Source: Limonium bicolor (taxonomy: Eukaryota > Streptophyta > Magnoliopsida > Caryophyllales > Plumbaginaceae). Taken from it: DNA of 64,000 bases. The translations under genes were made by a program, and so were the position numbers. Within the stretch, counting starts at the first letter, position 1. Each line of letters begins with the position of its first letter. The notes under the pieces were generated by a model. The model ran no database searches. It was given only the letters and a program-made list of their open reading frames with translations, and was not told the origin of the DNA. The stretch spans positions 91,322,978 to 91,386,977 of the forward strand of contig CM041778.1 of the NCBI GenBank assembly GCA_023374045.1, read 5' to 3'. This document shows, piece after piece, positions 3,369 to 40,163 of this stretch.

Positions 3369-3737
3369 GCTATATTCATTGCTTGTTCCACAATTTGTAA
3401 AAATTCTTCTGGGAATTTTGGTACTTGCGCTCCATCTCCATTTCTTTGTATCCTGATAGGTCTTTGAGTAAGGATTCCAATCCTTTCCTAAGCACATCAT
3501 TTTCAGCTTCATCTTTAATCCTCCTGGAAATTCTGGAGTGTAGAACCCTCCTGGTCCCGCTCCCAATTCTTGACATCTTCTGATGATTGCAATTTGTGTC
3601 TCCGGTGTAGGTATCCTTTGAGTAATATCAACCTAGTTGGATAACCTTACATTGTTCGTTCCCTGGTTCTTGTACTTTGATAATGTTTTCTTCCAGGGAG
3701 GACGGTGAGGGGATAGGAAAGCATATCTTATAGCTTC
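3369..3737 (-). pseudogene. AlkB-like dioxygenase exon of element B, truncated
   Basis: The minus strand encodes the N-terminal part of an AlkB-like domain, including ELGAGPGGFYTPEFPGG and KMKLKMMCLGKDWNPYSKT, closely matching the complete copy at 11973-12711. The reading frame opens at a splice acceptor (CCACCTAG) in phase 1, matching the Gag donor at 3866/3867. The domain is cut at 3369, where the inverted LTR begins. The core with the HxD motif, distal His and arginines is therefore missing and this copy cannot be catalytic. An in-frame stop and a small frame break are also present upstream of the GGFYTPEFPGG motif. The family assignment rests on similarity to the A copy. Confidence 0.75.
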
Positions 3738-4130: not shown

Positions 4131-7100
4131 TGTAACACCCCAACCGTTAATCCTATGCTTACCGTCTAATCGTCCTGTTAATCCTACGAGTTCGCAGCGG
4201 AATATTACTACTTACTACGACGGGTGAAACAATGCCGCTAACCGCCCATACGGCTAGCTAGGCTACTAATACTTACAGTGACGGTCTGATGAACATAATT
4301 TACCGAGCTACTAATAAAATGCATACTGATTACCACATAACCTACTTACATCCTGGAATCACCGAGTATTTAAAGTGTATACTTACATCCCAATTCAACT
4401 TCCCAAAAGAATGAGTTCACCTACTACTCATCTATACCAATTCCCATTCTATCAATATCCAAAAAGGTGTACCCCATGGTACACCGGCTAATCAAAAGTT
4501 ACAGCCATGTACTACTTAGTATACCCATCACAATCAATGTTCATAACCAAAAAGAAGACAAGAAATAAACTAAGTCTTCAACATCCTCCTCCACCACGAG
4601 TACCTGCATTCATGATAAAAACGGTGCCCCAAGGGGCTCAGCAAAAGCTGCGCATGAACTCCGCATATACCGCGTGCTAGCTAGGGCACGCCGACTATTT
4701 GACGTCCACTAACATGCGGTTCATTTAATTTTTCATACATACATGCTCTTCATGCATCATACATGCTCATACAATACATTACACATTCAAGGCAACAATA
4801 CAAGAGTACACACCACACTTACCTTCACAAGGTTAGCCAATTATGCATCCGGGTTAATCGGAATGCTTTTACTCTTTTACTCATCATACATTACTTACTC
4901 TTACTATACTTACTTACTACCATTCATTTTACTTACTCATTCTTACTTACCTGCTTATACTCAAGTTAAGTCGTCGGGACCTCCGGCCCTGGGACTACTT
5001 CGTCCCACCTCCGGGATTTACTTGACTCACCAATCCGGGATGCTACCCATTTAAGGATTTGGGCCGCGACCAGTTTAAGAGTCAGGAATCGGATCCAACC
5101 TCTTGTGTCTCCTCATCCTCACGCGTGGCCGAAACTATATCGGACTTCTACTCATTCCAATTTAATTACCAATTTAAGTTAGAATGGTTAGCTTGTTAGG
5201 AATAAGTTAGAAGTCCATTCTCATTAATAATCGGTCACAATGTAATACAACATACACACACACGTTCATTATCATCCATACATTTCATGAATTATACAAA
5301 CTGAGGTTTAAAGAAAATATACAACATCATACAACACTACATATTCACAAGTAAGCATAATAACTCCTATTCGTGCATTTATCTTATTTGGTGATCAATT
5401 AGCACACAACACACAAATCAGAGTAACCAAGATAGCATACGGGGCATGAGGAATTCATACCGTTCACCGTCGTACTTGTATCCCAACGTTCCTTCGGTGT
5501 TCACAATCCAAGTCCTAACATATACATACAATTGGGTGGTTAATTACCCTTACTTACCTTACTAACTACTTACTAACATTTCTACTAACATTTCTTGGTT
5601 TATACTTTACTAATTCATTATTGTTCAATACATGTACTTATGTTACTTTCTTAAAATTATTTTCTAAACTTGTTTATGGCCTTAATGACCTTTAAACATC
5701 ATTAATTATGTCTTAATCATCTTATAATATCATTACCCATCATTACCCATCCTTACCTGAGCTTTAAAACACATTCTGTACAATTCTGTGTTGGTCCGGG
5801 TTAGTGTCCGGGTTTACAAACCCGGACCAACCCACTGGAACAACATACGGGTTTAAATATGCATGGTCCGGGTTTACACCCTAGTTTAAAAAACCCGGAC
5901 CAATCTGTCTGAAAAAGCTACGGGTATAAAATTGACACCGTCCGGGTTTGTGCCCTACTTTCAAACCCGGACAATCTGTTTTGGTAAACTTACGGGTATG
6001 ATTTTGGGGTGGTTCGGGTTTGCATCTTGGTTTGTAACCCGGACCATCCCATTGTAAAACCTTCTGTCATGTTTTCGTGCTAGTCCGGGTTTGCATTCTG
6101 GTTTGCAACCCGGACTAGTTGCAGTATTTTTATTTATGTAAGTTTTTGAGTTTGTTTAAATTCTAAACTTCTACTAATCTCTTCCCTAATATTTCTACAT
6201 ATAATCTAGCATGTTTTAACTTTGTTTAAGCATTTAAAACTAGCCTAAACCAACACTATACAAATCTGTTACATTAACACTCTCACTGTAATTTTTCCTC
6301 CTCTGTTGCATTTCTACTTCTTCTAACAATGCTACAGACCTTCCTATTCTTCTTCCCACTAACTAAATAACTCTCAAACTATCCTAACTTAGTTTGACAA
6401 CTCACGGTTTACCATTTACAACTCCACTCCATCACATTTCTTTTTCATGTTACAAAACAAAGTGAACAATCTCCTTCTCTCTTCTCTGTAATTCTCTTCT
6501 GTTTCTTTCTTTTCTAACTTCAACCAAGACTCTACATTCCTAAACAAATTTTGACAGAGGTTCCCTACATTTCTAAGTGTTCTCACCTCATAATTTTGCA
6601 CACTCAATATTCCTACAACCTGTTCAACACACACAATATTCTCACATATATTTCTAATACCTCCTGCACACTCAACATTTACACTTAGCATATTATTTTT
6701 TTGTTTTCAAAACTTCAAACTACAACTACAACTACCATCACATTAATGTACCCATTTCCCTACGGTTACAGTGGTTTAGACATTGTTACAGTTTTACACC
6801 TACACGTACTCAAACATGGAAGTTATACAGAGGCTTCACATTACCTTGGTTTCTTTGTTTCTTTTCCTTTTCTCCTCCTTCTCCTTTCTTGCTCCTCTTC
6901 CCTTCTTTGTTTTTCTTGTTTTATTTCAACCAAACTACACCACGTAGTAAGGTACACCCATACACACAAAACTAGTAAGTTTTTACATCTCACGTATTAA
7001 CCCTAGATCATAATAAACCGTTTAAACTCTTAAGAGATCTTACCTTGGGCTTCTAATGAGTTTTTTGGAGTGGAAAATGACAAGACTCCAACCCTCAAGA

Positions 7101-7998
7101 TGGAACACCGAAACGGCTAGCAATGGAATAGTGATACATACGTGAGTTTTATTTTTTTTTTTGCAAGGAAACGTAGAAAAGAGTGAAGTTTGGGTCTACT
7201 TCTTACCTCAGAACATGTAGAAGATGCTAGATCTGGAAATGGTGCTCTCGAAGCTCCTAACCGATAATACCCTCAAAATTAAAGTTGGTGGTTTTAGATT
7301 TTTGAAAGGTGGAGAATGATCTCCTTGACGATACGAATTCAACGGTATGTTTTTTGTGGCATTTGGTGAAGGTTTGACGTTTCAAAAATGAAGAAGGAAG
7401 TGGCTCTGTATGTGGGTTTTCTCAAATCGCCATAGTTGCGCAGAGAGGAAGAAGAAAGAAAATAAGAGAGGTTGCAGTACGTGGTTGTGAGTGAGTGAGG
7501 AGAGAGGATTATTTTTTTTTTTGCTTTTGTTTGATTTCCCTTGTCTGTAGCTCAAAAGGAGAAATAAAGAGGAGGGTATGGGCCCTAATGCGGCCGGCTA
7601 CCCACACAACACACACACACACAACACTCTCTTTCAGTTTTTATTTCTAAAAGTGGACACACTAACTTATTTTAATTACACTCTCACCCCACACACTTCC
7701 CGTTTTGACAGTTTTTACTATTTTCTCGTTTTATTGATTTTATTGTTCTAAAGCTTCACTAATATTTATTAATGATTATTTAGTTGACCACAATTGTTAC
7801 GAGTCTATTTGACCCGCTTAAACAAACGTTTTTCCCGTTACCTCGAAAAACGCGCTTTAATGTTTATTAGTGTTTTTAATCCATTTTAAGGATCCGTTTT
7901 CTTCGGGATTTGTTCCCTAATATTTATTTATACTTAATTAAGCTTCTAAATTATTTATTAGCCTAATTAATCACTATTTTTAATTACGGGGTATTTCA
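4131..7998 (-). repeat. Element A 3' LTR
   Basis: The LTR starts TGTAACACCCC at 4131 and ends GGGGTATTTCA at 7998. Its near-identical partner is 14576-18436. The U5-proximal part holds a block conserved between families (about 4190-4310) and a CCCC/GGGG palindrome near 4627. The middle carries the hairpin array. The U3 end contains an AT-rich block, around 7740-7998, shared with the D and F LTRs. No ORF of recognisable function was found. Confidence 0.9.
5793..6118. repeat. Five-unit hairpin array, about 72-bp period (A 3' LTR)
   Basis: Five units start near 5793, 5865, 5939, 6011 and 6081. Each has an inverted repeat of the type GGTCCGGGTTT..AAACCCGGACC with a short loop. The spacers vary while the CCGGG/CCCGG arms are kept. 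The copy in the 5' LTR is 16236-16561. Confidence 0.85.
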
Positions 7999-8000
7999 AT

Positions 8001-8012
8001 CTACCCCCCTTA
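8001..8012 (-). other. Polypurine tract of element A
   Basis: On the minus strand this reads AGGGGGGTAG, two to three bases upstream of the 3' LTR terminus TGAAATACC. That is the expected place and composition for plus-strand DNA priming. The same tract occurs next to the D, C and F LTRs. Confidence 0.85.
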
Positions 8013-9272: not shown

Positions 9273-11186
9273 CTAGTATCTCGAAAGAAATCTGGTATCG
9301 CTGTCAGATACTATGGTCTTTGGGACTCCGTGGTGTCTGATAATCTCCTTATCAAATAGCTCAGCTAGTTTCATAACCTTCCAAGTGTCCTTCATCGGTA
9401 TGAATCTGGCAACCTTGGTAAGGCGATCAACTACAACCCAGATCATGTTGAGTCCTCCCCTGGCAGGTGGGAGTCCTACAACAAAATCCATGGAGATATC
9501 ATGAAATTTCCACTCCGGAACTGGCATCGATTGTACCATTCCGCCCGGTCTACGATGTTCGAATTTTACCTTCTGGCATGTTAAGCATCTCAATACGAAT
9601 TCTGTCACATCTGACTTCATTCCAGACCACCAGAAGTACCTCTTCATGTCTTTGTACATCTTGGAGGCTCCCGGATGGACTGATAATGTGGAACTGTGTG
9701 ACTCTCGCAGGATGCAATCCCTTAGCTCAGCATTGCTTCGGGGGACGCATAGCCTGCCATTCAACCGAATCAAACCATCTTCGTGTAGCTTGAAGTCATA
9801 CTTCTTCTTCTCAAATGTACCATTCTCAATCTTTTGTCTGATTTCGGTTAGGTAAGGGTCGCTCAACTGAGCGTCTCGCACTTCGTCAACCAAGCTAGAA
9901 GAAGCGAGTAGCGAATGGAGCGAGTGTGCTCGACGACTCAGGGCGTCGGCTACAACGTTTGCCTTCCCTTCCTTATATTGCAAGTTGATGTCATAGTCTG
10001 AAAGAAATTCCATCCATCTTCTCTGTCTCAGATTCAGTTCTTTCTGTGTGAATACATACTGTAAGCTCTTGTGGTCGGAGTAGATGGTGATGCTTACCCC
10101 ATAGAGATAGTGTCGCCATATCTTCAAGGCGAAGACAATGGCTCCTAACTCTAAGTCGTGAGTCGGGTAATTCTCCTCATGCTTTTTCAGCTGGCGGGAG
10201 GCATATGCAGCAACCTTGCCATGCTGCATGAGTACGCATCCCATTCCTTTGCCTGATGCATCACAGTATACCTCAAATCCCTCTGTGCCCTCTGGAAGAG
10301 TGAGGATGGGCGCTGAGGTCAATGAGTCTTTAAGGCTCTTAAATGATAGCTCGCACTCGTCTGTCCATACAAACGGTGCATCTTTCTTCATCAGTGTAGT
10401 CATGGGCTTAGCGACTTTCGAGAAGTCCTTTACAAATCTCCGGTAGTAACCGGCTAGACCAAGAAAGCTCCGAATGTCGGTAACAGTCTTAGGTCTAGGC
10501 CATGATCGTACAGCTTCTATCTTAGAAGGGTCCACTGAGATACCTGCGCTCGAGATGACATGTCCAAGGAATGATACCTGATCAAGCCAGAACTCGCATT
10601 TGGAGAACTTCGCATATAGCTGGTTCTCGCGCAGTGTCTCTAGTACTTTCCTCAAGTGAATTTCGTGTTCCTCTGCTGATTTTGAGTATACAAGGATGTC
10701 GTTGATGAAGACAACAACTGAAGTGTCCAACTGCTCACTGAATAAACGGTTCATGAGGTCCATGAATTTAGCTGGTGCATTTGACAGACCGAATGGCATC
10801 ACTGTGAATTCGTAGTGGCCATATCTGGTACGGAATGCCGTTTTCTCAATGTCTTGCTCTTTGATAGCAATCTGATGATACCCAGAACGAAGGTCAATCT
10901 TGGAGAAAACTGAGGCTCCTTTCAACTGATCAAATAGGTCATCGATGCGTGGCAATGGGTATTTATTCTTGACTATAACCGCATTCAACTCGCAGTAGTC
11001 AATACAAAGTCAGAGGCTACCGTCCTTCTTCTTCACAAAGAGGACCGGTGCTCCCCAGGGTGATACGCTCGGGCGTATAAACCCTTTATCGAGAAGGTCT
11101 CGTAACTGTTCTTTCAATTCCGTCATTTCTGCAGGTGCCATGCGGTACGGTGCCCTAGCAATGGGACCGGTACCCTGGCAAAAGAT
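9273..11186 (-). pseudogene. Element A reverse transcriptase, RNase H and integrase core
   Basis: A 571-residue frame (9273-10988) plus about 200 bases upstream of it. RT blocks include [43 protein letters not shown] and FLGHVIS. RNase H shows CDASGKGMG, the Glu in [16 protein letters not shown] and ADALSRR. Integrase begins with an HHCC finger ([23 protein letters not shown]) and the DFVVGLPP and IVSDSDTRF Asp motifs. The RT catalytic box reads FINDILVYS instead of FIDD, so the first catalytic Asp is Asn. A TGA interrupts the conserved CIDYRELN region just upstream. Polymerase activity is not expected from this copy. Confidence 0.9.
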
Positions 11187-11832
11187 CTATTTCAAATTCA
11201 ACTGCTCTCGGTGGTGGCATGCCGGGTAGCTCCTTAGGGAATACATCGGGAACTCGGATACAATGGGTACTTCATCATTGAACTCTAGATCTCTCTCCAG
11301 GTCTTGTACATAACACAAATATACTTCTTGGCCCTTTCTGAGCTCCCGGTACATAGCCATGGCAGTTATAAGTGTGGTCGAAGGCTCTCTCGGTCTCTGG
11401 CGGTAAGATATAGTAACCCCAGAAGGACTCTTGAGCAGCAATCGATGCTCGGCGCAGAGGATTCTACCCTTGTGCCGCTCCAACCAATTCATTCCGATTA
11501 TTAAGTCGAATCCCAATCCATTGAATTCGATGAAGGAAATGGAAACGCTTCATTTTTTATTTCGATGGTGGCTGATTGATAATATTTGGTGCACTTACTT
11601 TCTCGCTCCTTCGATGGGAGAGTAACCATGAAGTTCGGTAGCTCATCCGCATCTAGCTTCAACCTCTTCACAAAGGATGGTGATACGAAAGTGTGAGAGG
11701 CGCCGGAGTCGAATAATACATTGGCATCAATGCCATTTACTGGGAAGGTTCCCGTTAAGATGGTGCCGCTTCTTCTGCCGGCTTGTGCTTCGGTGAGGAT
11801 GCTCTGGTTACCTTCGGTACCGAGCCCACAAC
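11187..11832 (-). pseudogene. Element A aspartic protease, one frameshift
   Basis: The retropepsin catalytic box is LFDSGASHTFV, followed about 90 residues later by FDLIIGMNWL. The protease releases Gag and Pol proteins from the polyprotein. The frame runs back through a splice-acceptor-like TTCAATAG at 11833. The phase there is +1, matching the Gag zinc-knuckle donor, so spliced RNA could encode a direct Gag-PR fusion. A frame change near 11505-11520 splits the domain in two. The homologous acceptor in D is at 39278. Confidence 0.85.
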
Positions 11833-11972
11833 CTATTGAAGTCACAATTGGATAAGTATTGATGGTGGACACAAGTGGAATTTAAATCACACTGCTCTTT
11901 ATTGATAAACCAACCATCATACAAGCCGTGTCTCGAATACACGTTACTAATACATTACATGGTACTAAGAAT
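11833..11972 (-). other. AlkB 3' segment with AATAAA, and protease splice acceptor
   Basis: This follows the AlkB stop codon. It contains AATAAA on the minus strand (11898-11903) and ends with the acceptor TTCAATAG before the PR frame. Element D keeps both the AATAAA (39345-39350) and the acceptor. Two readings fit: a retroelement switch between an AlkB-terminated RNA and a Gag-Pol RNA, or a remnant 3' UTR of the captured host gene that became intronic. Confidence 0.55.
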
Positions 11973-12711
11973 TTAATACTTCCTAAAGGTAAGGTTCAGG
12001 CGTCCTGGTTTCATGTGTGTGGCATTGATTATTGCCGGTGGTGCTGTATTCAGCTTGATCTTGTTGATACCGTGATACAACATCCTAGAGTTTCCACCCA
12101 TGATTAGGACATCTCCTGATCTCAATACCAGTTTCTGTGCGAGGTCCACACGCTTCTGCTCGCTATACATAAATACGGCGTCATCACCAATGGACCAAGA
12201 CACTACGGGCACTCCCTGTTCAAGAGATTCCGCTGTCTCGTCCTTGTCTTGGTGTAACCCAAGTCGTCCTTCTTTCTCATAGAAGTTGACGATACAGAGG
12301 TCCGCTTCAAGTGCGGGGATCGGTTCATATTCGCATTGTTGTGCAAGTTCTACTGCTTGCCTGACGAGTGTCTGAAACTCTGGAGGTATTGTCGGTGGCG
12401 TCGCTCCATCTTGTGTTCGTGTCTCTTGGAATGTCTTGGTATAAGGATTCCAATCCTTTCCCAAGCACATCATCTTCAGCTTCATCTTCGCTCCACCGGG
12501 GAATTCGGGTGTGTAAATCCTCCTTGACCCGTTCCTAGCTCGTTGCATCGTCGGATGATTGAGATTTGTGCTTCAGGTGTCAGGTATCCCTTTAATAAGA
12601 TCATACCTGGTCGGATGACCTGACACTGTTCGCTGGTGTAGCAGTGGTTGGTGATGTCGATCTCTTCTTGATTCAGGTCTACCGGTATCGGATAACAGAT
12701 ACTAAAGTTTC
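11973..12711 (-). CDS. AlkB-like Fe(II)/2-oxoglutarate dioxygenase exon of element A
   Basis: About 245 residues forming a full AlkB-family domain, closest in motif pattern to plant nuclear ALKBH1-type proteins that oxidatively demethylate nucleic acids. Visible signatures in order: ELGTGQGGF, YTPEFPGGAKMKLKMMCLGK, DLCIVNFY (Asn-x-Tyr of the 2OG pocket), GRLGLHQDKDE (iron ligands His 12252-12254 and Asp 12246-12248), PVVSWSIGDDAVF, SGDVLIMGG, MLYHGI (third iron ligand, 12072-12074) and GRLNLTFRKY with two Arg six residues apart. It begins at a phase-1 acceptor after TAACCATAG, in frame with Gag, and ends in TAA. One base is missing from a T run near 12514-12517, which splits the frame; B and D carry the extra base. 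Host role is known only for the family; its substrate in a retroelement is unknown. Confidence 0.9.
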
Positions 12712-12867
12712 CTATGGTTACAAATTTCATCTACGGTGAGTACTAGTTTTAACTACTTCATTTCATGCTCAACATACACTTCAATTCATTTACTCATGCA
12801 TTCATTCAAATAATCATTCTACTACTTAGTCATGCTACTTCAAGGATTAAAGGTTTAGATTAATTAC
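12712..12867 (-). other. Putative intron between Gag zinc knuckles and AlkB (element A)
   Basis: Minus-strand GTAATTAATC follows GGCCCAG, and the segment ends TAACCATAG before the AlkB frame. The exon phase is 1 on both sides, giving an uninterrupted Gag-AlkB junction. If the protease acceptor at 11833 is used instead, the intron is about 1.03 kb and removes all of AlkB, again in phase. Confidence 0.7.
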
Positions 12868-13212
12868 CTGGGCCGGATTTCGAACCGGACCCATCACGGT
12901 CAATAACATGAAGAACAGGCTGCCTCTGGGGTGCGCCCCTCTTAGGACCCCGGGATCCCTGTCCCTGTGGTGCCTGCTGGGCCGGTGCATCGCCAGATGC
13001 CACCTCCTTGCCCTCTCTCTGCTTGTAGTTTTGAAAGTTTCCCTTTGGCTTCCCATTCTCCGGGCACTTGTTAGCTGTGTGTCCCAGCTTCTGGCAATTG
13101 TAGCACTTGATGTCTCTCCCAAAACAGTCTCTGCCGGGATGATCCTGGTTGCACTTTCTGCACACATAGGTGCGGCCATCGGAGAAGGTTTTGGCGGATC
13201 CGGAGCTAGAAC
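12868..13212 (-). CDS. Element A gag exon 3: nucleocapsid zinc knuckles
   Basis: Encodes FSDGRTYVCRKCNQDHPG, part of a CX2CX3HX4C knuckle, then CYNCQKLGHTANKC, a CX2CX4HX4C knuckle, followed by a Gly/Gln/Pro-rich basic tail ending IDRDGSGSKSGPG. These knuckles bind and package the element RNA. The exon opens at an acceptor AACCTCAG and closes at the phase-1 donor CCAG/GTAATT. The homologous exon is 40352-40695 in D and is split by element A in B. Confidence 0.85.
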
Positions 13213-13302
13213 CTGAGGTTAGAGGGTTAGCACATGTGTGCGTGGATATACTAGATATGATACTTGTATAGATACGAATTCGGTTTAGAAGTTTATTCTT
13301 AG
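13213..13302 (-). other. Gag intron 2 of element A, donor eroded
   Basis: The acceptor side (CTAACCTCAG) is intact, but the donor GT seen in D (40788) and B (18603) is not present here; the matching bases read CCTAAGAAT. The limits are therefore approximate. If unspliced, the reading frame from AAKPLRS runs through to the zinc knuckles without a stop. Confidence 0.5.
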
Positions 13303-13575: not shown

Positions 13576-13680
13576 CTGAAGTTTCAGGTATTAGCCGGGA
13601 TTCTCGATATTGAAAAAGATTCAAAGAATTCAAGGAATTTCAAGGAATTGAATTGATACTAAGGGTTAACTGATATTTAC
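13576..13680 (-). other. Putative gag intron 1 of element A
   Basis: A 105-base segment with GTAAATATC at the donor after CTTCAG, and CTGAAACTTCAG at the acceptor. Both sides are phase 0, joining FTSLQ to ECYHAAS. The same position is interrupted in B (18845-18936) and D (41060-41147) by segments of different sequence, which supports a genuine conserved intron. Confidence 0.75.
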
Positions 13681-14347
13681 CTGAAGGGAGGTAAATCTTG
13701 TGTAGCCCATACCGTACCGAAGGCGATGGCTCAGACCGCCATAGAAGCGATCGACCAACACCTGGCCGGTGTATCCTAGACCAGGGAGAAGACAGAGAAT
13801 GGAGGTGAAGGTGCGGTAGTACTCATCCACAGACATCTTGTCTGTCATCTTCAAGGCGTCAAGTTCAAGCCTCTTCTTTGTCTTTACGTGCTCCGGATAG
13901 TACTTAGATCGGAGGAGAGATGCAAAGGACTCCCAATCGAATGTGGGGTCATTGACGTGCTCGTGCTTGATTAGCTTCCACCAATCCATAGCCGCATCCT
14001 TCAGATAATAAGCAGCAACTCTGACTCGAACTCCAGCAGGAGCTTCGAGGGTTTCAAAAGCAGTCTCCATTTCAGAGATGTATGCTTCTAGCTTAGCCGG
14101 ATCACTCTCGCCCCTAAAGCAAGGAGGGCGGAGTTCCGCTACAGCTTTTACCCAGTTTGCTTCTCTGGGTGGCGGGGGAGGGGTTGGCCCCGCTTGAGTT
14201 TGTTGGTTTTTGTTGATTCTGTTGCATTGCTTGTATTACTTGCGGTAGCATCTGCGCTACCGTGGCGGCGACGATCTCAGCTATCGTCTGCGCGCCAGGT
14301 CCTTCTGAGGCTTCGCCTCTAGCTCGGCCTCGGCCTCTTCCTGACAT
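13681..14347 (-). CDS. Element A gag exon 1: retrotransposon Gag domain
   Basis: The likely start is the ATG at 14345-14347, giving MSGRGRGRARGEASEG; element B has the same MSGRG start. Next come an amphipathic AQTIAEIVAATVAQMLPQVI segment and a Gln-rich stretch. The classic Gag domain follows: METAFETLEAPAG, YYLKDAAMDWWKL, LLRSKYYPEH, DEYYRTFTSILCLLPGLGY and LVDRFYGGLSHRL. Gag forms the particle in which reverse transcription occurs. One frame break lies near 14070-14115. Confidence 0.85.
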
Positions 14348-14558: not shown

Positions 14559-14570
14559 GCTCTGATACCA
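14559..14570 (-). other. Primer binding site, initiator tRNA-Met type (element A)
   Basis: Minus-strand TGGTATCAGAGC is the standard plant initiator-tRNA-Met PBS, separated from the 5' LTR end (TTACA) by five bases. It primes minus-strand cDNA synthesis. Confidence 0.92.
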
Positions 14571-14575
14571 CTTTT

Positions 14576-17500
14576 TGTAACACCCCCAACTGTTAATCCT
14601 ATGCTTACCGTCTAATCGTCCTGTTAATCCTACGAGTTCGCAGCGGAATATTACTACTTACTACGGCGGGTGAAACAATGCCGCTAACCGCCCATACGGC
14701 TAGCTAGGCTACTAATACTTACAGTGACGGTCTGATGAACATAATTTACCGAGCTACTAATAAAATGCATACTGATTACCAATAACCTACTTACATCCTG
14801 GAATCACCGAGTATTTAAAGTGTATACTTACATCCCAATTCAAACTTCCCAAAAGAATGAGTTCACCTACTACTCATCTATACCAATTCCCATTCTATCA
14901 ATATCCAAAAAGGTGTACCCCTTGGTACACCGGCTAATCAAAAGTTTCAGCCATGTACTACTTAGTACACCCCCATCACATTCAATGTTCATAACCAAAA
15001 AGAAGACAAGAAATAAACTAAGTCTTCAACATCCTCCTCCATCACGAGTACCTGCATTCATGATAAAAACGGTGCCCCAAGGGGCTCAGCAAAAGCTGCG
15101 CATGAACTCCGCATATACCGCGTGCTAGCTAGGGCACGCCGACTATTTGACGTCCACTAAACATGCGGTTCATTTAATTTCGTACATACATGCTCTTCAT
15201 GCATCATACATGCTCATACAATACATTACACATTCAAGGCAACAATACAAGAGTACACACCTCACTTACCTTCACAAGGGTTAGCCAAATTATGCATCCG
15301 GTTAATCGGAATGCTTTTACTCTTTTACTCATCATACATTACTTACTCTTACTATACTTACTTACTACCATTCATTTTACTTACTCATTCTTACTTACTT
15401 GCTTATACTCAAGTTAAGTCGTCGGGACCTCCGGCCCTGGGGACTACTCCCGTCCCACCTCCGGGATTTACTTGACTCACCAACCCGGGATGCTACCCAT
15501 TTAAGGGATTTGGGCCGCGGACCAGTTTAAGAGTCAGGAATCGGATCCAACCTCTTGTGTCTCCTCATCCTCACGCGTGGCCGAAACTATATCGGACTTC
15601 TACTCATTCCAATTTAATTACCAATTTAAGTTAGAATGGTTAGCTTGTTAGGAATAAGTTAGAAGTCCATTCTCATTAATAATCGGTCACAATGTAATAC
15701 AACATACACACACACGTTCATTATCATCCATACATTTCATGAATTATACAAACTGAGGTTTAAAGAAAATATACAACATCATACAACACTACATATTCAC
15801 AAGTAAGCATAATAACTCCGATTCGTGCATTTATCTTATTTGGTGATCAATTAGCACACAACACACAAATCAGAGTAACCAAGATAGCATACGGGGCATG
15901 AGGAATTCATACCGTTCACCGTCGTACTTGTATCCCAACGTTCCTTCGGTGTTCACAATCCAAGTCCTAACATATACATACAATTGGGTGGTTAATTACC
16001 CTTACTTAACCTTACTAACTACTTACTAACATTTCTTGGTTTATACTTTACTAATTCATTATTGTTCAAATACATGTACTTATGTTACTTTCTTAAAATT
16101 ATTTTCTAAACTTGTTTATGGCCTTAATGACCTTTAAACATCATTAATTATGTCTTAATCATCTTATAATATCATTACCCATCATTACCCATCCTTACCT
16201 AAGCTTTAAAACACATTCTGTACAAATTTTGTGTTGGTCCGGGTTAGTGTCCGGGTTTACAAACCCGGACCAACCCACTGGAACAACATACGGGTTTAAA
16301 ATATGCATGGTCCGGGTTTACACCCTAGTTTAAAACCCGGACCAATCTGTCTGAAAAAGCTACGGGTATAAAATTGACACCGTCCGGGTTTGTGCCCTAC
16401 TTTCAAACCCGGACAATCTGTTTTGGTAAACTTACGGGTATGATTTTGGGGTGGTTCGGGTTTGCATCTTGGTTTGTAACCCGGACCATCCCATTGTAAA
16501 AACCTTCTGTCATGTTTTCGTGCTAGTCCGGGTTTGCATTCTGGTTTGCAACCCGGACTAGTTGCAGTATTTTTATTTATGTAAGTTTTTGAGTTTGTTT
16601 AAATTCTAAACTTCTACTAATCTCTTCCCTAATATTTCTACATATAATCTAGCATGTTTTAACTTTGTTTAAGCATTTAAAACTAGCCTAAACCAACACT
16701 ATACAAATCTGTTACATTAACACTCTCACTGTAATTTTTCCTCCTCTGTTGCATTTCTACTTCTTCTAACAATGCTACAGACCTTCCTATTCTTCTTCCC
16801 ACTAACTAAATAACTCTCAAACTATCCTAACTTAGTTTGACAACTCACGGTTTACCATTTACAACTCCACTCCATCACATTTCTTTTCATGTTACAAAAC
16901 AAAGTGAACAATCTCCTTCTCTCTTCTCTGTAATTCTCTTCTGTTTCTTTCTTTTCTAACTTCAACCAAGACTCTACATTCCTAAACAAATTTTGACAGA
17001 GGTTCCCTACATTTCTAAGTGTTCTCACCTCATAATTTTGCACACTCAATATTCCTACTACCTGTTCAACACACACAATATTCTCACATATATTTCTAAT
17101 ACCTCCTGCACACTCAACATTTACACTTAGCATATTATTTCTTTGTTTTCAAAACTTCAACTACAACTACAACTACCATCACATTAATGTACCCATTTTC
17201 CCTACGGTTACAGTGGTTTAGACATTGTTACAGTTTTACACACTACACGTACTCAAACATGGAAGTTATACAGAGGCTTCACATTACCTTGGTTTCTTTG
17301 TTTCTTTTCCTTTTCTCCTCCTTCTCCTTTCTTGCCCCTCTTCCCTTCTTTGTTTTCTTGTTTTATTTCAACCAAACTACACCATGTAGTAAGGTACACC
17401 CCATACACACAAAACTAGTAAGTTTTTACATCTCACGTATTAACCCTAGATCATAATAAACCGTTTAAACTCTTAAGAGATCTTACCTTGGGCTTCTAAT

Positions 17501-18436
17501 GAGTTTTTGGAGTGGAAAATGACAAGACTCCAACCCTCAAGATGGAACACCGAAACGGCTAGCAATGGAATAGTGATACATACGTGAGTTTTATTTTTTT
17601 TTTTGCAAGGAAACGTAGAAAAGAGTGAAGTTTGGGTCTACTTCTTACCTCAGAACATGTAGAAGATGCTAGATCTGAAATGGTGCTCTCGAAGCTCCTA
17701 ACCGATAATACCCTCAAAATTAAAGTTGGTGGTTTTAGATTTTTGAAAGGTGGAGAATGATCTCCTTGACGATACGAATTCAACGGTATGTTTTTTGTGG
17801 CATTTGGTGAAGGTTTGACGTTTCAAAATGAAGAAGGAAGTGGCTCTGTATGTGGGTTTTCTCAAATCGCCATAGTTGCACAGAGAGGAAGAAGAAAGAA
17901 AATAAGAGAGGTTGCAGTACGTGGGTTGTGAGTGAGTGAGGAGGAGGATTATTTTTTTTTTTGCTTTTGTTTGATTTCCCTTGTCTGTAGCTCATAAGGA
18001 GAAATAAAGAGGAGGGTATGGGCCCTAATGCGGCCGGCTACCCACACAACACACACACACACTCTCTCTTTCAGTTTTTATTTCTAAAAGTGGACACACT
18101 AACTTATTTTAATTACACTCTCACCCCACAACTTCCCGTTTTGGACAGTTTTTACTATTTTCTCGTTTTATATTTGATTTTATTGGTTCTAAGCTTCACT
18201 AATATTTATTAATGATTATTTAGTTGACCACAATTGTTACGAGTCTATTTGACCCCTTAAAGACACGTTTTCCCGGTTACCTCGAAAAACGCGCTTAATG
18301 TTTATTAGTGTTTTTAATCCATTTTAAGGATCCGTTTTCTTCGGGATTTGTTCCCTAATATTTATTTATACTTAATTAAGCTTCTAAATTATTTATTAGC
18401 CTAATTAATCACTATTTTTAATTACGGGGTATTTCA
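14576..18436 (-). repeat. Element A 5' LTR
   Basis: Partner of 4131-7998, with the same termini (TGTAACACC and GGGGTATTTCA). Differences between the two are few and are mainly one-base indels in runs, for example CATTTCTTTTC against CATTTCTTTTTC near 16877. It should contain the element promoter and the start of the genomic RNA, but I could not place a TATA box or start site with confidence. Confidence 0.92.
16236..16561. repeat. Five-unit hairpin array, about 72-bp period (A 5' LTR)
   Basis: Copy of the array at 5793-6118, with all five CCGGGTTT..AAACCCGG units retained in the same order. Confidence 0.85.
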
Positions 18437-18441
18437 GCCGG
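18437..18441. repeat. Target-site duplication of element A, right copy (GCCGG)
   Basis: Matches 4126-4130 and closes the element A insertion. Confidence 0.9.
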
Positions 18442-19747: not shown

Positions 19748-22700
19748 TGTAACACCCCAACCCGAAATCCAATAACCTATACGGCGATCACTCCCAAATA
19801 AACATAAACTGCAGCAGAATAAAATACAATAAACCGGCGGTATTACAATGCCGTTGGCCACTCTTGTGACCAACAAGGCTAACTCCAAATACAATCTCCA
19901 AAAGTCACGGTCTGAATACGAATACAATCCGAGATACTAGGAATCAAACTCAAAGGTACAATACTTAAGTAAAACAAATAACTAGAAGAAGACTCCCATA
20001 GCTTGAATCTACCCCACCTACACTCAGTGTGGTAACCTTCTTAACTTCAGGTACCTGAAAAATGGGAGTGCCCCCAGGGGGCTCAGCAAACAATGCTGGT
20101 ATGGAAAACGTGCAGCCCATTGTCTACCGGGCCACACCAACTACTTTGTCGAATACATGCAGTTCATTTTTATAAAGCTGTAAACAAGCATAGTATGATG
20201 ATAACAAGTATCCATACAAGGACAATAATGTCACATAGAACAAGACTGCAGAAGGTCAAGTTAGATGAACTGTAATCCTTTAATGATAGTCGGGTCCCAC
20301 AATGGGACTGACGGGTTTAATGAATATCTCAAATAGTGAAGGTGTAGTGACCTCGTTAAGATTGAAAGGTTGGGTAATTAGTCCCTCAGAAGATAACGTA
20401 GTTAACTCCTGTACTTAGAAATGTGGGAATCGAACCCTCGAGAGGAATGAAGTCTTCCTCTCCACTGAACTGTTGGGAATTGAACCCTCGAGAGGAATAA
20501 AGTCTTCCTCTCCACTGAAATGTTCCGTCGCGACGTAAATAGGAGATGACCTGAGACAGGTACAGCTCCTGTAGCATGCATGGCCAGATCCGACTGGGCT
20601 CCTCGTTCTCGTAGTATAGAATTGTTAGGTGTCATATAAAGACGTTAAACATGAACACAATGTGTATTGTCGATTATCACGTTTAGGATAACGACGTCTG
20701 TTATAAAGTGAAGTTAGTGAGAAACTTGAGTACAAGCTCTCGGTATAATAAAGCGCATGTATTTAATCCACTGGTATTGTAGTGTTGTATGCGTGGGACA
20801 TACATGTCGTAGTTATATCATTCACGCATATAAAATCACACAACAGTGCACAAGAGTAATTCAACATTTTACAATGATTATCTTGGTCGTTATTCAAACA
20901 CACAGAGCACACAAGCCGTGTAATCCGGCAGAAAACAGGTTGCAAGAATCCCATACCGTTCACCGTAGATTGTACTTGTTTATTTCCCGATCAACGTCTG
21001 GTCAAACAAGGTCCTAGAATAGGATTAACTGAGAGGGTTAATTTATGTTACCTTATATAATAATTCTATTGGATCTTTTAACAAATCTCGTATTTGTTAT
21101 TTCATGTGAGGTTTATTTCTTTTAATTACCTCATGATTTTATGTATATCTTATTTGTTATTCCTTTTTATTCGTTATAATTCCTTTAATGAACAAAAATG
21201 TATTTATTTATTCATGTATTATATTTGTTGTTTATTTTGAGTGTCTAGGTGACATAACAATTTATAGTTTTCTTAATTATATTTATATGTCATATATGGA
21301 CATAATATTCTTATAGTTTTTATTTTCCTCCTACCTTAACCTTAAATTATAATTATTGGTTACCTTTAATTTCCTTATAACTACATAAGTCATAGTTTTA
21401 TCTTCATAATTCCTTTATTCAAAAATCTTTCTTCTAATTCCTCCTCCAAATATTCATATAGGACCTATATTTCTTTAAATCTAATTATTACCCTATATTT
21501 CGGTTATTTACAAAACAACCACATTAATTCATAAAATTTACATTTAAATTCTAATCTCTTTATATAACATAGTTTTAATTCCTATCACAAAACTACCATT
21601 AATATTTTGGTATATACTTTTAAATATTGTAACTTTGAAAATTACAACTTAGCCCCTCCAATTCTCGGCCTATATATATATATTTCTTATAATTGCAATT
21701 TAGCCACAAAATCTTATAATCTTTACATAATGCCTATAAACTATAGTTTTAATTTTAATTCTCCATAAATGCCGAATATATATATATATAATTCTTAAAT
21801 TACCAAACTAACCCCAAGTATTCGGCTTTGTCATTATTTTCCTTAATTACATTTTCATCCCAAAACTTTATATAGTTTCTTAATATCTTATAAACTATAG
21901 TCTAAATATTTAATTCCTCAGAATTTCGAAGGTGAACCTAATAAATCTCTTAATTATGAATTCGCCCACTAATAAGTTCCAAATTTTCATAACAACTTTA
22001 TAAATTACATAATAGCCCAAACTTTATAAAGTTATTTTAACACTTGTTTAAATTATCTAAAATTCATAAACTTAATTCCTAACCTTATATTATATCATAA
22101 TTACTCCAACCTTCCCTTAACTCTCGGCTTTCACAATATATACCCACACAACTTTGTAAAAATTACATTTTAGCCACATAACTTAATTATTAGCCATTTA
22201 AGCACTAATAAATATTTTTAACTCTCCAAACTTTATAATATCAGTTTATATACCTAAGTAGGTTCGTTAATACCTATTTATCACTTAGACCATTCGGCCA
22301 TAATTAAGTGACCATATAGTAATATAAAAGTGGATCTATATGTCAAAATAATTATCCATAAATTCATAGGAGTTTATAACTCATGTAAATTATTGTAATG
22401 TCTTATATTGATTCTTAGCTCAAAATAGAACATTTTTAACCCTTGGTAATTCAGTTTGAATTTGTACCTAACATAGATAAATTTTGTGACACAAAAATGT
22501 GTCTTAAGGTAAATATTTTCCATATAGGTTATAGATTATATTTTTGGTATATTCTACCATGTAGTTTCGGTTTTATATAACCTAGGAGATGTACATAATT
22601 TTTGTATAATTTTTATAACTTAACAAGCTTAAAACTTAGAGATTAACTTAGTAAACTTACTTCTTAAACAAAGGTGGTTAAGTGCTTGAACTCTTCTTGG

Positions 22701-28163: not shown

Positions 28164-28502
28164 TCAGTCTGAGGGTGGAAGTTGTGCTAAGGCGTAGTTG
28201 AGTACCAAACGCCACCGGACCAGACGCCAAAACCTGCAGAGGAAACGTGTGTCACGATTAAAGACGATCTTCTTCGGTAACCCATGGTACTGGATATGCT
28301 CTGTGGTGAACACCTCAGCTAGTTTGGGCACCTTCCATGTGTCCTTGATAGGTATGAACCTGGCTGTCTTGGTTAACCTATCGACTATCACCCATATCGC
28401 GTTCAGTCCTTCTCTAGCTGGAGGGAGACCTACCACAAAATCCATGCTGATGTCGTCAAACTTCCAGCACGGTACGGGTAATGACTGAATCTGGCCTCCT
28501 GG
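28164..28502 (-). pseudogene. Element C integrase catalytic core, damaged
   Basis: Contains [35 protein letters not shown] and IVFNRDTRF. The second catalytic Asp of the DDE triad (SDRD in A and D) is Asn here. The frame is lost after about 28240. Not expected to integrate DNA. Confidence 0.8.
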
Positions 28503-29426
28503 TCAACGATGCTCGAACTTCACCTTCTGACAGGTGAGGCATCGGGGGACGAAGTCTGCTACAACCCTCTTCATCCCGTTCCACCAGAATAACTGCTTCA
28601 AATCCTTGTACATCTTGGTGGCTCCAGGGTGTACTGACAATGTAGAGGAATGAGCCTCAAAGAGGATCCTGGTCTGAAGTTCTATCACATCCTGAGGAAC
28701 GCAGAGTCTGCCTCTGACTCGAAGGTGTCCCTCGCTGTCTAGCTCGTAGTCATACTTCAGAACATCAGTCAAACCATCTGCTAACTTCTGCCTGATGCCC
28801 TGTAGATTAGCATCACTGTCCTGGGCTGCATATACCTCCTCAGCTATCGTGGTCATCTCTATCAAAGCAAGGAGTGAATATGCTCTTCTGCTCAGAGCGT
28901 CTGCCATGACATTCCCTTTACCTTCAGTGTACTGGAGGTTGATGTCGTAATCGGCTAGTAGCTCTACCCATCGTTGCTGTCTCAGGTTCAGCACCTTCTG
29001 GGTCCAGATGTATTTCAGACTCTTGTGGTCTGTCATAATCCGGACTGTGGCTCCATACAGGTAGTGTCGCCAGATCTTCAAAGCGAAGAATATGGCGAGG
29101 AGCTCAAGGTCGTGTGTGGGATAATTTTCTTCGTGCTTCTTCAGCTGTCGAGAAGCGTAAGCTACAACTCTGCCATTCTGTATCAATACCCCACCGATCC
29201 CTCTGCCAGAAGCATCACAATATACCTGAAATCCCTCATTCCCTTCAGGGATTACCAGCACTGAAGTTGTGCTTAGGGCAACCTTCAGCGCCTGGAAGGA
29301 GACCTCGCAAGCCTCTGTCCATACAAACAGGTTATCCTTCTTCATCAGAGAGGTTAGGGCTTGGCTAGCCAGGAGAAATCCTCCACGAAGCGTTTGTAGT
29401 AGCCAGCCAACCCAAGGAAACTCCAA
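28503..29426 (-). pseudogene. Element C RNase H and integrase zinc finger
   Basis: A 307-residue frame. RNase H carries [11 protein letters not shown], the THDLELLAI Glu, MTDHKSL and ADALSRR. The integrase HHCC finger follows ([23 protein letters not shown]). RNase H residues appear complete. It is broken from the RT upstream by a frame change and from the integrase core by a stop. Confidence 0.85.
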
Positions 29427-30040
29427 ATCTCTGTCACTGTGTGGGGTCTATGCTAGCTCTTCACCGCCTCAATCTTAGCTTGGTCTATTGAAACTCCCTC
29501 AGCTGAGATCACATGACCAAGAAATGATACCTTGTCCAGCCATAATTCACACTTGCTGAACTTGGCATAAACTTGCCTTTCTCTCAGGGTCTCCAAGACT
29601 GTCCTCAAATGCTGCTCATGTTCCTCTCTGCTCTTGGAGAAGATCAAAATGGCATCTATGAATACGACCACTGACTTGTCTAGCTGGGCTTGGAAGACTT
29701 TATGTATCAGGTGCATGAATCTTACTGGTGCGTTGGTCAGTCCAAACGGCATCACTGTGACCTCGTAGTGGTCGTATCTGGTCCGGAATGTTGTCTTCTC
29801 TATATCTGATTCAGCTACTGTGATCTGATGATATCCGGAACGCAAATCAATCTTGGAGAACACTTTTGCTCCCTTTAGCTGGTCAAATAGGTCATCGATC
29901 AAAGGCAGTGGGTACTTGTTCTTGATTGTGACGTTGTTTAGCTCCCTGTAGTCGATACAGAGTCTCATGCTTCTGTCCTTCTTCTTGACGAACAACACTG
30001 GAGCGCCCCAAGGTGAGACACTAGGTTTGATGAAGCCCAT
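29427..30040 (-). pseudogene. Element C reverse transcriptase
   Basis: A frame of about 195 residues with [53 protein letters not shown] and FLGHVIS. The catalytic box reads FIDAILIFS, so the second Asp of FIDD is Ala. The sequence is about as far from A and D as expected for a different Tekay-type lineage. Confidence 0.87.
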
Positions 30041-30428
30041 GTCTAGTAGCTCCTGCAGTTTTTTTCTTCAGTAACCATCTCTACAGGGCCCATCCGGTAG
30101 GGAGCCTTTGCAATTGGTCCCGTGCCAGGTATGAGGTCGATGTTGAACTCAACTTCTCTCAGCGGTGGCAGTCCAGGTAGCTCCTCTGGAAAGACGTCGG
30201 GGTACTCCGACACAATGGGAACATCGCTCCTGAACTTTGGATATGTCCTCAGATCCTAGGCATAATAGTAGTAGGCGGTAGCGCCCTTGGACACCTCCTA
30301 CATCAATGATAATGCCGATACAACCTTCACAGTTGGCTGCTGGGCTGCATTTGGTATGATACTGTGACTCCTGTAGCTGACTTCAAGAGGAGACGATGCT
30401 CTGCATAGTGTAGTCTGCCTCTGTATCG
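30041..30428 (-). pseudogene. Element C protease-RT linker, degraded
   Basis: Still recognisable by the [10 protein letters not shown] and PGYE-type phrases before the RT, but with stops and shifts in all minus-strand frames. No independent gene. Confidence 0.55.
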
Positions 30429-30746
30429 CTATAGCGTGTCCATGCCCACAATTAGGTCGAATCTCATTCCAGGGTAAACAATGACATCAAGAAGAAAGTA
30501 TGCCCCCCTGATGTGTATGCTCAAGTCCTTGCATTGCTTACTGCACTTGATTAACTCTCTGAATGGCAATAAGACTGAGCAGTCATGAATATCCTCTATA
30601 GGGGCATTTATCTTAGCATGAAATGTCTGGGATATAAATGAATGGGAGGCTCCAGAATCAAACAGAACAGTGGCCTCAGCTCCATTAATTAAGAAAGTGC
30701 TTGTGATAACCATCCCATTGCTCTTTGCTTGAGCTTGGTTCAACAC
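30429..30746 (-). pseudogene. Element C aspartic protease
   Basis: Retropepsin core with TVLFDSGASHSFIS and FDLIVGMDTL. It follows the zinc knuckle region within about 40 bases, with no AlkB exon between Gag and PR, unlike elements A, B and D. Confidence 0.85.
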
Positions 30747-30785
30747 ATTCAGCCTGATCCCTGAGTTTCCAACCCCATGTGAACT

Positions 30786-31418
30786 CTAGTCGTCACTTGC
30801 TGCCTCGACACGGTCCACCAAGCTAAGATTTGGTGCTTTGTCTGGCCTCTGAGGGTAGTTCTGGGCAAGGCGGTTGGTAGATGGTCCAGCACCTCCTGTG
30901 CCACCTCTACCTCCATCTCCAGTAGTATTAGTAACTGGGGCTCTAGTCGCTGTCCCGGTGCGTGGCTTGTAGCTCTTGGAATCCGGGTTCGAGAAGCATT
31001 CGAACGATCTGTGCCCCTTCCGGCCGCAGTAGTGGCAAGTCACAAGGGTTCCATCACACTCCTTGCCTGGGTGGTCCTGCTTTCACTTCTTGTAGAAACA
31101 TTTCCTCACGGGTCTGTCTCCCCTGGGTAGCTCGTAGCGAAGTGGCTTGGCATCAGCATGAGAAGAAACGATGGCTTCTCATTTCCTCCTCCCTCCCTTG
31201 AAAAATCTTCCCCTTCTTTCATTGTTCTGAGAGGGACCTCTTCCATTTCCTCCTCTATTATCATTCCTCCTCTTGCCTAACACCGAATCCTGGTAGGTAA
31301 TGGTGGTTTCGCAGTCATTCGCATCATCAGCAAGTTCCTGCAGAGTCATTCCTCACGTGGAACCTATCATAGTCATATTCCCAAAGTTTAAGCCGGTGTG
31401 GAACTTGTCTACCAGGTA
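30786..31418 (-). pseudogene. Element C gag C-terminal half with zinc knuckle
   Basis: Contains CHYCGRKGHRSFEC (CX2CX4HX4C) at the start of an 85-residue frame, a Gly/Thr-rich tail, and a damaged upstream knuckle (KQDHPGKEC). Further upstream TLQELADDANDCETTITYQDS is readable with one stop. No intron-like interruption was seen here. Element D inserted immediately upstream at 31419; the remainder is 52532-53080. Confidence 0.75.
31414..31418. repeat. Target-site duplication of element D, left copy (AGGTA)
   Basis: The right copy is 52532-52536. A further copy of this flank lies inside D at 41975-42012. Confidence 0.88.
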
Positions 31419-35883: not shown

Positions 35884-37232
35884 CTAGTCTACAAATAGAT
35901 TCAGGTACTTCGCCTTCATGGCGTCCTCTAGTTCCCAAGTCGCTTCCTCGACATCGTGGTTAGACCACAAGACTTTCACCATTCGTACAGATTTATGGCG
36001 AGTGTCTCTTGTCTTTGTATCAAGGATTGGCAATGGAGTCTCGACATATCTCATCGTCGGCTCTAGGGATAAGTGTTCGGGTTCTAATACATGAGAGGGA
36101 TCGGCTATGTATTTCTTGAGTTGTGATACATGAAGACATCATGAACACGCCCCAATTCTTCAGGCAATGCTAGCCTATAAGCTACGGCTCTAATCCTCTC
36201 GGTAATGGCATACGGGCCTACATATTTCGGGCTCAGTTTGCCCTTCTGGCCAAATCGAAAGACACCCTTCATAGGTGAGACACGCAAGAACACTTGGTCG
36301 CCCACGGCGAACTCAAGGTCGCGTCGTCGCACATCCGCATAGGATTTCTGTCTATCTTGGGCTGCTTTCATATTGGCTCGAATTTGCTGAACTTCAGCTT
36401 GTACTTGTTCCAGATACTCCTGTCCTATGATGACCGCTTCGCTTGACTCATCCCAACACAACGGGGTACGGCAAGGTCTACCATATAAAGCTTGGAATGG
36501 CGACATCTTAATCGAAGCATGATAGCTATTGTTATACGAAAACTCGATAAGATGAAGCTTCTCAATCCAGCTCCCCTGGAAGTCTAAGGCACATGCCCTA
36601 AGCATATCCTCTAGTGTCTGGATGGTCCTTTCTGTCTGACCGTCGGTCTGTGGATGGAAGGCGGTGCTAAGCTTCAACTCAGTACCAAGCGCTTCCCGTG
36701 TTGCTCTCCAGTATCTCGAAAGAAATCTGGTGTCGCGATCAGATACTATGGTTTTCGGGACTCCGTGGTGTCGGATGATCTCCTTGTCGAATAGCTCTGC
36801 GAGCTTCGCCACCTTCCAGATGTCCTTCATCGGTATGAATCGGGCAACCTTGGTGAGACGATCGACTACTACCCAGATCATGTTGAGTCCTCCCCTAGCA
36901 GGTGGGAGTCCAACAACAAAATCCATAGAGATATCGTGGAATTTCCACTCCGGAATGGGCATGGATTGCACCATTCCTCCCGGTCTTCGGTGCTCAAACT
37001 TCACCTTTTGGCACGTGAGACACCTTAGAACATACTCAGTCACGTTGGATTTCATTCCTGACCACCAGAAGTACCTCTTCATGTCTTTGTACATTTTTGA
37101 GGCTCCCGGATGGACATGTAATGTCGAACAATGTGACTCTCGCAGAATGCGATCCCTTAGCTCAGCATTGCTTCGGGGGACGCATAATCTACCATTCAAT
37201 CGGATCAGACCATCTTCATGCAGTTTGAAGTC
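35884..37232 (-). CDS. Element D integrase with chromodomain
   Basis: A 364-residue frame (36105-37199) runs from the HHCC finger ([23 protein letters not shown]) through the DDE core: [17 protein letters not shown] and [16 protein letters not shown], with all three acidic residues present, to the GPY/F module KLSPKYVGPYAITERI. After one frame change near 36130 the chromodomain follows (VKVLWSNHDVEEATWELEDAM) and ends in TAG at 35884-35886. This is the best-preserved integrase in the window. The chromodomain is intact, unlike A's, which has a stop at the Trp. Confidence 0.88.
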
Positions 37233-39419: not shown

Positions 39420-40163
39420 TTAATACTTTCTAAAGGTGAGGTTCAGGCGTCCTGGTTTCATGTGTGTGGCATTGATTATTGCGGCGGTGCCGTGTTCAAC
39501 TTGATCTTCTGGATCCCGTGATACAGCAACTTGATTTTCCACCCATGATTAGAACGTCTCCTGATCTCAATACCAATTTCTCTGCGAGGTCCACACGCTT
39601 CTGCTCGCTATACAAGAATACGGCGTCATCACCAATGGACCAAGACACTACGGGCACTCCTAGTTCAAGAGATTCCGCCGTCTCGTCCTTATCTTGGTGT
39701 AAGCCAAGTCGTCCTTCTTTTCTCATAGAAGTTGGACAATACATAAATCTGCTTCAAGTGCAGGGATTGGTTCATCTTCGCATTGTTGTGCAATTTCTAC
39801 AGCTTGTGTGACAAGCGTCTGGTATTCAGGGGGTATTACTGGAGGTGTTGCTCCGTCTCCTGCTCGCGTTGTTTGGTATGTCTTTGGTATAAGGGTTCCA
39901 ATCCTTTCCCAAGCACATCATTTTCAACTTCATTGTAGCTCCACCGGGGAATTCGGGTGTATAAAATCCTCCTGGACCCGTTCCTAACTCGTTGCATCGT
40001 GGATGATTGAAACTTGTGCTTCGGGTGTCAGGTATCCTTTTAATAAGATCAACCTGAGCGGAGCGGATGACCTGACACTGATTGTTGTCGAAGTGGTGAG
40101 TGGCGATGTCGCCTCTTCATGTGGTGAGTTCGAGAGGTATTGGGTAACAGATAAGGAATTTCC
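39420..40163 (-). pseudogene. AlkB-like dioxygenase exon of element D, several indels
   Basis: Nucleotide-level homologue of 11973-12711 along its full length, including the terminal TAA. Catalytic codons are preserved at the DNA level: CTTGGCTTACACCAAGATAA (HxD region, about 39695-39715), TTGTATCACGG-type distal His and the terminal Arg-x5-Arg segment. About six one-base indels, near 39525, 39725, 39745, 39890, 40010 and 40060, break the frame. Against A, over the indel-poor 39545-39725 stretch, seven synonymous and three replacement differences are seen, which suggests selection before decay. Confidence 0.82.

Follow-up and report, generated by a model that had tools for sequence, protein, structure and literature searches.

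An ALKBH1-type AlkB domain between nucleocapsid and protease in Ty3/Gypsy retrotransposons of Limonium bicolor, and a candidate splicing layout for its expression

How could a retrotransposon accommodate an extra enzyme domain in the middle of its gag-pol region, and what might it gain from it? The question is raised by a stretch of 64,000 nucleotides of Limonium bicolor (GCA_023374045.1, contig CM041778.1, positions 91,322,978 to 91,386,977; hereafter the window), the minus strand of which holds Ty3/Gypsy elements nested one in another. Three of them, here called A, B and D, carry an AlkB domain, a type of enzyme that removes alkyl groups from nucleic acids. In this study, we have found that this domain is of plant ALKBH1C/D type, that it occupies one position in three diverged element families, and that it is flanked by one candidate splice donor and two candidate acceptors, a layout that is not in the initial annotation of the window. 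The explanation towards which we lean is a spliced Gag-AlkB fusion that would demethylate element nucleic acid inside particles.

The AlkB domain, its copies and its origin

The window contains the following AlkB copies.

11973..12711, minus strand: ALKBH1C/D-type AlkB exon of element A, with one frameshift on the N-terminal side (stop 11975-11973)
39423..40163, minus strand: AlkB of element D, frameshifted
3369..3737, minus strand: partial AlkB of element B, truncated at 3368 by a different repeat

The family assignment proposed in the initial annotation is borne out by profile PF13532, which the exon of element A matches with an E-value of 7.7e-40 and 137.6 bits (curated cut-off 31.2; the database relative P0001 reaches 158 bits). 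The exon also matches the rice structure 5xeg (E 4.4e-58) and E. coli AlkB (1.2e-19), and both in sequence and in fold it is nearest to OsALKBH1 and plant ALKBH1C/D. Copy A is divided between two frames, the N-terminal part at 12497-12604 and the remainder at 11976-12518, the latter holding HxD (HQD), the distal His (YHG), N-x-Y (NFY) and R-x5-R (RLNLTFR). The HxD...H iron ligands and the RxxxxxR ligands of 2-oxoglutarate are found in copy A and in the uninterrupted copies L035 and L069, and H154, D156 and H214 are invariant across 26 aligned sequences. Element A had been described as carrying a complete domain between Gag and protease: the domain, its position and all of its cofactor residues stand, but the frameshift means that it is not complete.

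This frameshift looks private to copy A, since L041, which is its nearest sister in a 49-copy tree, is uninterrupted. A frameshift inherited within the subfamily of copy A was considered and rejected on the same ground, and because the length change is scattered on the tree; the shared frameshift seen among the best matches is an artefact, as the query itself included the frameshifted residues, which biased the search towards copies of this kind. The frameshifted copy reported for D is present, between nucleocapsid and protease, and that reported for B is a partial copy, readable at 3411-3737, which we infer to lie at the same place. The fragment of B is cut by one arm of an inverted repeat (1-3368 and 19748-23105, 87.6% identity).

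In the 2.92 Gb genome to which the window belongs, a 30-base AlkB probe with up to two mismatches finds 4,775 + 4,554 = 9,329 places; the reversed probe finds 0 + 0, which excludes a chance origin of the matches. All 50 aligned rows have AlkB between nucleocapsid and protease, and 48 of them also have the capsid in place; the 50 rows, all selected for carrying AlkB, comprise 48 loci (L001 being copy A) plus A and D as found in the window. The sample of family 1 consists of 48 opened places out of 150 listed, 40 of them chosen among rows without stops. Family 2 was found with P0001 as the query (the best 150 of 50,036 first-look candidates, 73-77% identical to P0001), and four of its 150 places were opened. 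Family 3 was found with the host-type protein P0005, and L073-L076 were opened out of 136 places. Its AlkB is 64-66% identical to P0001 and its layout is that of the other families, at only 42-45% identity to element A in the capsid and 41-46% in the protease (three of the four copies); in L073 the protease start is in frame downstream and the active-site stretch is absent. A late insertion of AlkB into three copies was rejected in view of the common position across the 50 rows and the two further families and of the 9,329 places, and the shared position anticipated in the initial annotation thus holds well beyond the window. Two stretches in viral contigs fit a search pattern, and neither encodes a relative.

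Simple Nei-Gojobori counts give a nonsynonymous divergence (dN) of 0.15-0.16 and a synonymous divergence (dS) of about 1.9, near saturation, between the AlkB of families 1 and 2, a ratio of about 0.08. For L035 the ratio is 0.21 against D, 0.14 against A and 0.09 against B, the last with saturated dS, and its median over the 136 pairs of 17 uninterrupted copies is 0.11, for copies selected on protein similarity, a choice that depresses dN. L035 and L069 are separated by no indel in the exon and by 9 and 8 in the flanks. Were AlkB a passenger, a host fragment of no benefit to the element, the state of the window would be accounted for, as all three copies there are broken; the stops in 24 of the 150 top-ranked places found with the copy A query (hand count) and the seven exon indels between L035 and the decayed D (5 and 3 in the flanks) point the same way. 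These facts, like the choice of most copies by protein similarity, weigh against a functional domain. The passenger is nevertheless hardly credible in the face of the low ratio at near-saturated silent sites, the indel-free exon of L035 and L069, the retention of AlkB in three families and further relatives, and the absence of stops from 137 of the 150 best-scoring P0001 places (hand count, in a list ranked by similarity). Purifying selection on a real and abundant AlkB domain is therefore supported. Long terminal repeat (LTR) pieces, compared in six of ten elements (four gave no match), differ by 0.28-2.9% substitutions, which suggests recent transposition of the elements with an open AlkB.

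In trees of 43 and 50 rows, the element copies together with P0001, P0002, P0003, P0004 and P0006 form one clade (100/100) on a long stem, the bootstrap of the 43-row tree not having settled; in a 29-row tree the same clade takes in P0055, family 3 and the piece of B. No host protein falls inside it in any of the three. P0001 and P0004 group with families 1 and 2 (91/86 in the 29-row tree), apart from family 3, and therefore the families split before these sequences parted. One clade and one position in three diverged families support what the initial annotation had supposed, namely that an ancestor of the elements captured an ALKBH1-like gene from its host; a single origin is compatible with the one clade, although not proved by it.

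When 5.8 billion proteins were searched by profile, no named plant with an element-type AlkB appeared among the matches listed (120 of 3,383, the best), those after P0001-P0004 being host-type proteins. The element AlkB begins at the FDIC-like motif of the host proteins, has no intron within the domain, and is 44-54% identical, as represented by L035, to 19 aligned host-type proteins. Because the domain is intronless while the host-type relative P0087 has extra residues after GLHQ that resemble a retained intron, a capture from spliced mRNA is suggested. The host gene itself was not found through P0005, the four places opened of 136 all being family 3; a low score in such a search is expected for a gene interrupted by introns.

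Candidate splice sites around the AlkB exon

The sites on which the proposed expression of AlkB depends are listed here, a slash marking the proposed exon border.

12868..13212, minus strand: nucleocapsid exon of element A, with a zinc knuckle (PF00098, E 4.2e-06), terminating in CCAG
12712..12867, minus strand: proposed intron from the donor (GT 12867-12866) to acceptor 1 (AG 12713-12712)
11833..12867, minus strand: proposed long intron skipping AlkB, from the same donor to acceptor 2 (AG 11834-11833)
11898..11903, minus strand: AATAAA, a possible poly(A) signal 3' of the AlkB stop, in 46 of the 50 rows
11642..11832, minus strand: protease start of element A (LFDSGASHTFVS), phase 1
13576..13680, minus strand: proposed gag intron 1, CAG/GTAAAT ... 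TTCAG/GAG, its sites kept in most variants listed
13213..13297, minus strand: proposed gag intron 2, acceptor CTCAG/GTT, donor end approximate

The nucleocapsid ends in CCAG/GTAA, AlkB follows ...TAG/GAA and the protease follows ...ATAG/GTTG. Over the 50 rows the donor GT is kept in 49, the AG of acceptor 1 in 48 and that of acceptor 2 in 49, and the AG of acceptor 1 is present in all eight copies of families 2 and 3. In the comparison with D and three family 2 copies, against a background dinucleotide survival of 16-22%, a single GT out of 14 survives in the 5' intron, namely the donor, and a single AG out of eight survives 3' of the AlkB stop, namely acceptor 2; four of the 14 AGs of the 5' intron survive, acceptor 1 included, as do three of the 13 GTs 3' of the stop. 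Donor and acceptors are in phase 1 throughout. Joining the donor to acceptor 1 would create a Gag-AlkB reading frame ending at AlkB's own stop. Joined to acceptor 2 instead, the donor leaves out AlkB and re-establishes, colinearly, the Gag-Pol frame of element C, a relative in the window that lacks AlkB; the resulting Gag-protease frame is continuous in A, L035 and L069, three of the five copies compared. The donor phase agrees with the open protease frame in all four family 3 copies, of which L073 and L076 carry stops in the nucleocapsid frame.

Protease and polymerase might instead be reached by recoding or from an internal start, the GT and AG sites being incidental, and splicing at these sites is indeed deduced from sequence. 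However, about 1 kb, the AlkB stop included, separates the two frames, the surviving GT and AG are exactly the donor and acceptor 2, acceptor 1 is among the few AGs to survive, and the phase never changes. We thus consider recoding or an internal start very improbable.

Several observations tell against splicing as we read it. The Gag frame is broken directly before the donor in D and L070, the aligned acceptor 2 of L075 has no AG, and AATAAA, found by eye in three of the four family 2 copies, is AATGAA in family 3. The end of the nucleocapsid exon is as variable as the 5' intron (mean minor-allele fractions 0.068 and 0.064). Furthermore, an ATG stands directly before acceptor 1 in 39 of the 50 rows, 30 of them with spacing that keeps the AlkB frame, and therefore a separate AlkB open reading frame (ORF) is possible there. 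AlkB would in that case be a free protein translated from its own start, either this ATG or the Met of RPGMILL, with no fusion to Gag; P0001 and P0004 are called from that internal Met in the database, and an orchid element has its AlkB as a separate ORF2 in the available text of PMC9289625. Yet 20 of the 50 rows have no usable upstream ATG (11 absent, 9 out of frame), it is missing from four family 2 copies (which have ATA) and four family 3 copies, the AG of acceptor 1 is preserved even so in the rows and the other families, and the exon is open and similar from the internal Met back to the acceptor. A free AlkB is accordingly an unlikely alternative to the fusion with Gag, which we retain.

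The non-coding sequence between the AlkB stop and acceptor 2 (11833-11972) has a mean minor-allele fraction of 0.027, the same as the exon, and diverges between families (60% identity); its low variation possibly reflects poly(A) or splicing control. The two conserved candidate introns within gag are, to our knowledge, unusual for a Ty3/Gypsy element. The donor of the second reads GGGTAAA in L035 and is altered in copy A. With two such introns, full-length Gag would need splicing too.

The following sequence of events is proposed. A Ty3/Gypsy ancestor would have captured a plant ALKBH1C/D gene between nucleocapsid and protease, most likely from spliced mRNA, and the insert would have turned into a spliceable exon. 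Unspliced RNA would be the genome of the element, splicing from the donor after the nucleocapsid to acceptor 1 would produce a Gag-AlkB fusion that ends at the AlkB stop near the poly(A)-like signal, and splicing from the same donor to acceptor 2 would skip AlkB and allow Gag-Pol to be made. Joined to the RNA-binding end of Gag, AlkB would be carried into the particle, where it might strip N-methyl groups (of the N1-methyladenosine, m1A, 3-methylcytidine, m3C, and N6-methyladenine, 6mA/m6A, types) off the element RNA or its single-stranded cDNA, leading to better copying or to avoidance of methyl-based control. The substrate is not readable from the sequence, which is a further point against this model.

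Element A and the nest around it

The remaining parts of element A and its AlkB-less relative are the following.

4131..7998, minus strand: 3' LTR of element A, 97.9% identical to 14576-18436, TG...CA ends
14576..18436, minus strand: 5' LTR of element A, 97.9% identical to the 3' LTR
4126-4130 and 18437-18441: flanking direct repeat GCCGG of element A (sequence read)
14559..14570, minus strand: primer binding site TGGTATCAGAGC of element A (sequence read), presumably of the initiator Met tRNA type
8004..8011, minus strand: polypurine tract AAGGGGGG of element A (sequence read)
13669..14232, minus strand: gag capsid exon of element A (PF03732, E 9.8e-16; PF19259, E 4.6e-11)
9276..11009, minus strand: reverse transcriptase, RNase H and zinc-binding part of the integrase of element A (PF00078, PF17917, PF17919, PF17921)
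28230..31091, minus strand: element C, related, without AlkB

Element A, 14.3 kb in total, thus shows the LTRs, primer binding site, polypurine tract, target duplication and order of domains (Gag, protease, reverse transcriptase, RNase H, integrase) of a Ty3/Gypsy LTR retrotransposon. The best database match of the reverse transcriptase is P0122 (83%), named plants reaching at most 67% among the best 120 of 7,963 matches. The integrase of element D has a chromodomain-like C-terminus (35884..36117, minus strand; PF00385, E 0.0009, 19.6 bits, under the Pfam cut-off of 25.1), and the elements are probably chromoviruses of what we take to be the Tekay type, the PF00385 match being sub-threshold. 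In element C, the nucleocapsid (30954-31091) and the protease (30609-30776) form one continuous frame that contains a single stop, and pol is 67% alike in the repeat comparison of the window.

Element A seems to have been inserted into element B, because GCCGG flanks A and the gag of B lies on the far side of A. Other repeats complete the nest. A direct repeat of about 477 bases (43666-44141 and 49724-50202, 96.9%) flanks sequence inserted into the 5' LTR of element D, an arrangement resembling a nested element whose LTRs are short, and a 2.4 kb direct repeat (24578-27005 and 55291-57743, 95.9% identity) could represent the LTRs of a large nest. The match between the LTRs of D extends some 38 bases (31381-31418) beyond the end suggested by A, into sequence like that of the primer-site region, which hints at a tandem or recombined arrangement. 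Imperfect tandem units spaced by about 72 bases lie within the LTRs of A and D (5792-6115, 16235-16558, 33117-33442 and 50258-50585).

Comparison with known systems

The initial annotation rightly allowed for earlier reports of such elements. According to the available text of PMC9289625, the Gypsy_Pa_2799 lineage of Phalaenopsis, related to Tat/Ogre, carries a paALKBH5-like ORF2 that demethylates m6A in vitro, and a screen of 121 plant genomes found the AlkB domain only in two Phalaenopsis genomes; the portion of the review PMC12786077 at hand also names this case. Both the orchid and the Limonium elements are abundant plant Ty3/Gypsy elements with a captured host AlkB domain that keeps its iron and 2-oxoglutarate ligands. 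The same available text of PMC9289625 gives the orchid elements a place in the Tat lineage as sister to Ogre, a length of 25 kb, a tRNA-Arg primer site, dual RNase H, and a recently acquired ALKBH5-type domain, active in vitro, as a separate ORF2. In contrast, the Limonium elements have a domain of ALKBH1C/D rather than ALKBH5 type, as an exon inside gag-pol rather than an ORF2 of its own next to a single Gag-Pol ORF, a primer site of presumed initiator Met type, a chromodomain-like tail and a length of 14.3 kb, and Pfam matched no second RNase H in element A. The Limonium capture is apparently the older of the two.

By analogy, the Limonium AlkB might act on m6A in RNA, as an epitranscriptomic evasion like that of the orchid elements, and not on DNA or damaged bases. 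The in vitro activity of the orchid enzyme (PMC9289625, as excerpted) favours this possibility, as does the release of ONSEN RNA by host ALKBH9B described in the consulted part of PMC12786077. The ALKBH1 type points to DNA or single-stranded intermediates, beyond m6A in mRNA, and we grant the m6A reading a modest minority chance. We keep to a demethylase packaged as a Gag fusion, and put forward more tentatively a wider proposal: a long-lived lineage in which alternative 3' splice sites would choose between Gag-Pol and Gag-AlkB, its DNA-type (ALKBH1) demethylase, packaged together with the genome so as to clean or unmark the RNA and cDNA, representing a second, independent AlkB capture and a convergent device of counter-defence or repair. 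Two plant Gypsy groups with different AlkB subfamilies suggest that methylation or alkylation of nucleic acids is a repeated obstacle for retroelements. The exon layout would let splicing-based control of AlkB dose be tested from RNA reads, and conservation over three families and further relatives provides natural replicates for the substrate question.

With OsALKBH1 (PDB 5xoi, 5xeg) and plant ALKBH1C/D, the element AlkB shares the fold and the complete catalytic domain, which extends from the FDIC-like motif as far as the C-terminus; it differs in being without the variable N-terminus, in its intronless domain and in forming its own long-stemmed clade. In Ogre of pea and Medicago, an intron between the GAG-PROT and RT ORFs is spliced in a subset of transcripts, as stated in the accessible part of PMC6317226, and partial splicing there likewise brings the coding regions of a plant Gypsy element together. 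No enzyme is described for the Ogre intron in that text, whereas in the Limonium elements the skipped stretch contains a conserved exon that has an acceptor and a stop of its own and precedes the protease; splicing is demonstrated in Ogre (same text) and read from sequence features here. Plant RNA viruses, named in the available text of PMC9289625 and compared by description only, also encode an AlkB able to act on RNA, within an unrelated replication system. AlkB goes unmentioned in the main text of PMC7264820 and PMC6317226, in the portions available, and among the matches listed from the open-licence PubMed Central literature no title or abstract start presents an ALKBH1-type or gag-internal AlkB element. 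The capture of AlkB by plant Gypsy elements was thus already known (PMC9289625, in its available text), and its ALKBH1-type form, as a candidate spliceable exon inside gag-pol, seems to be new.
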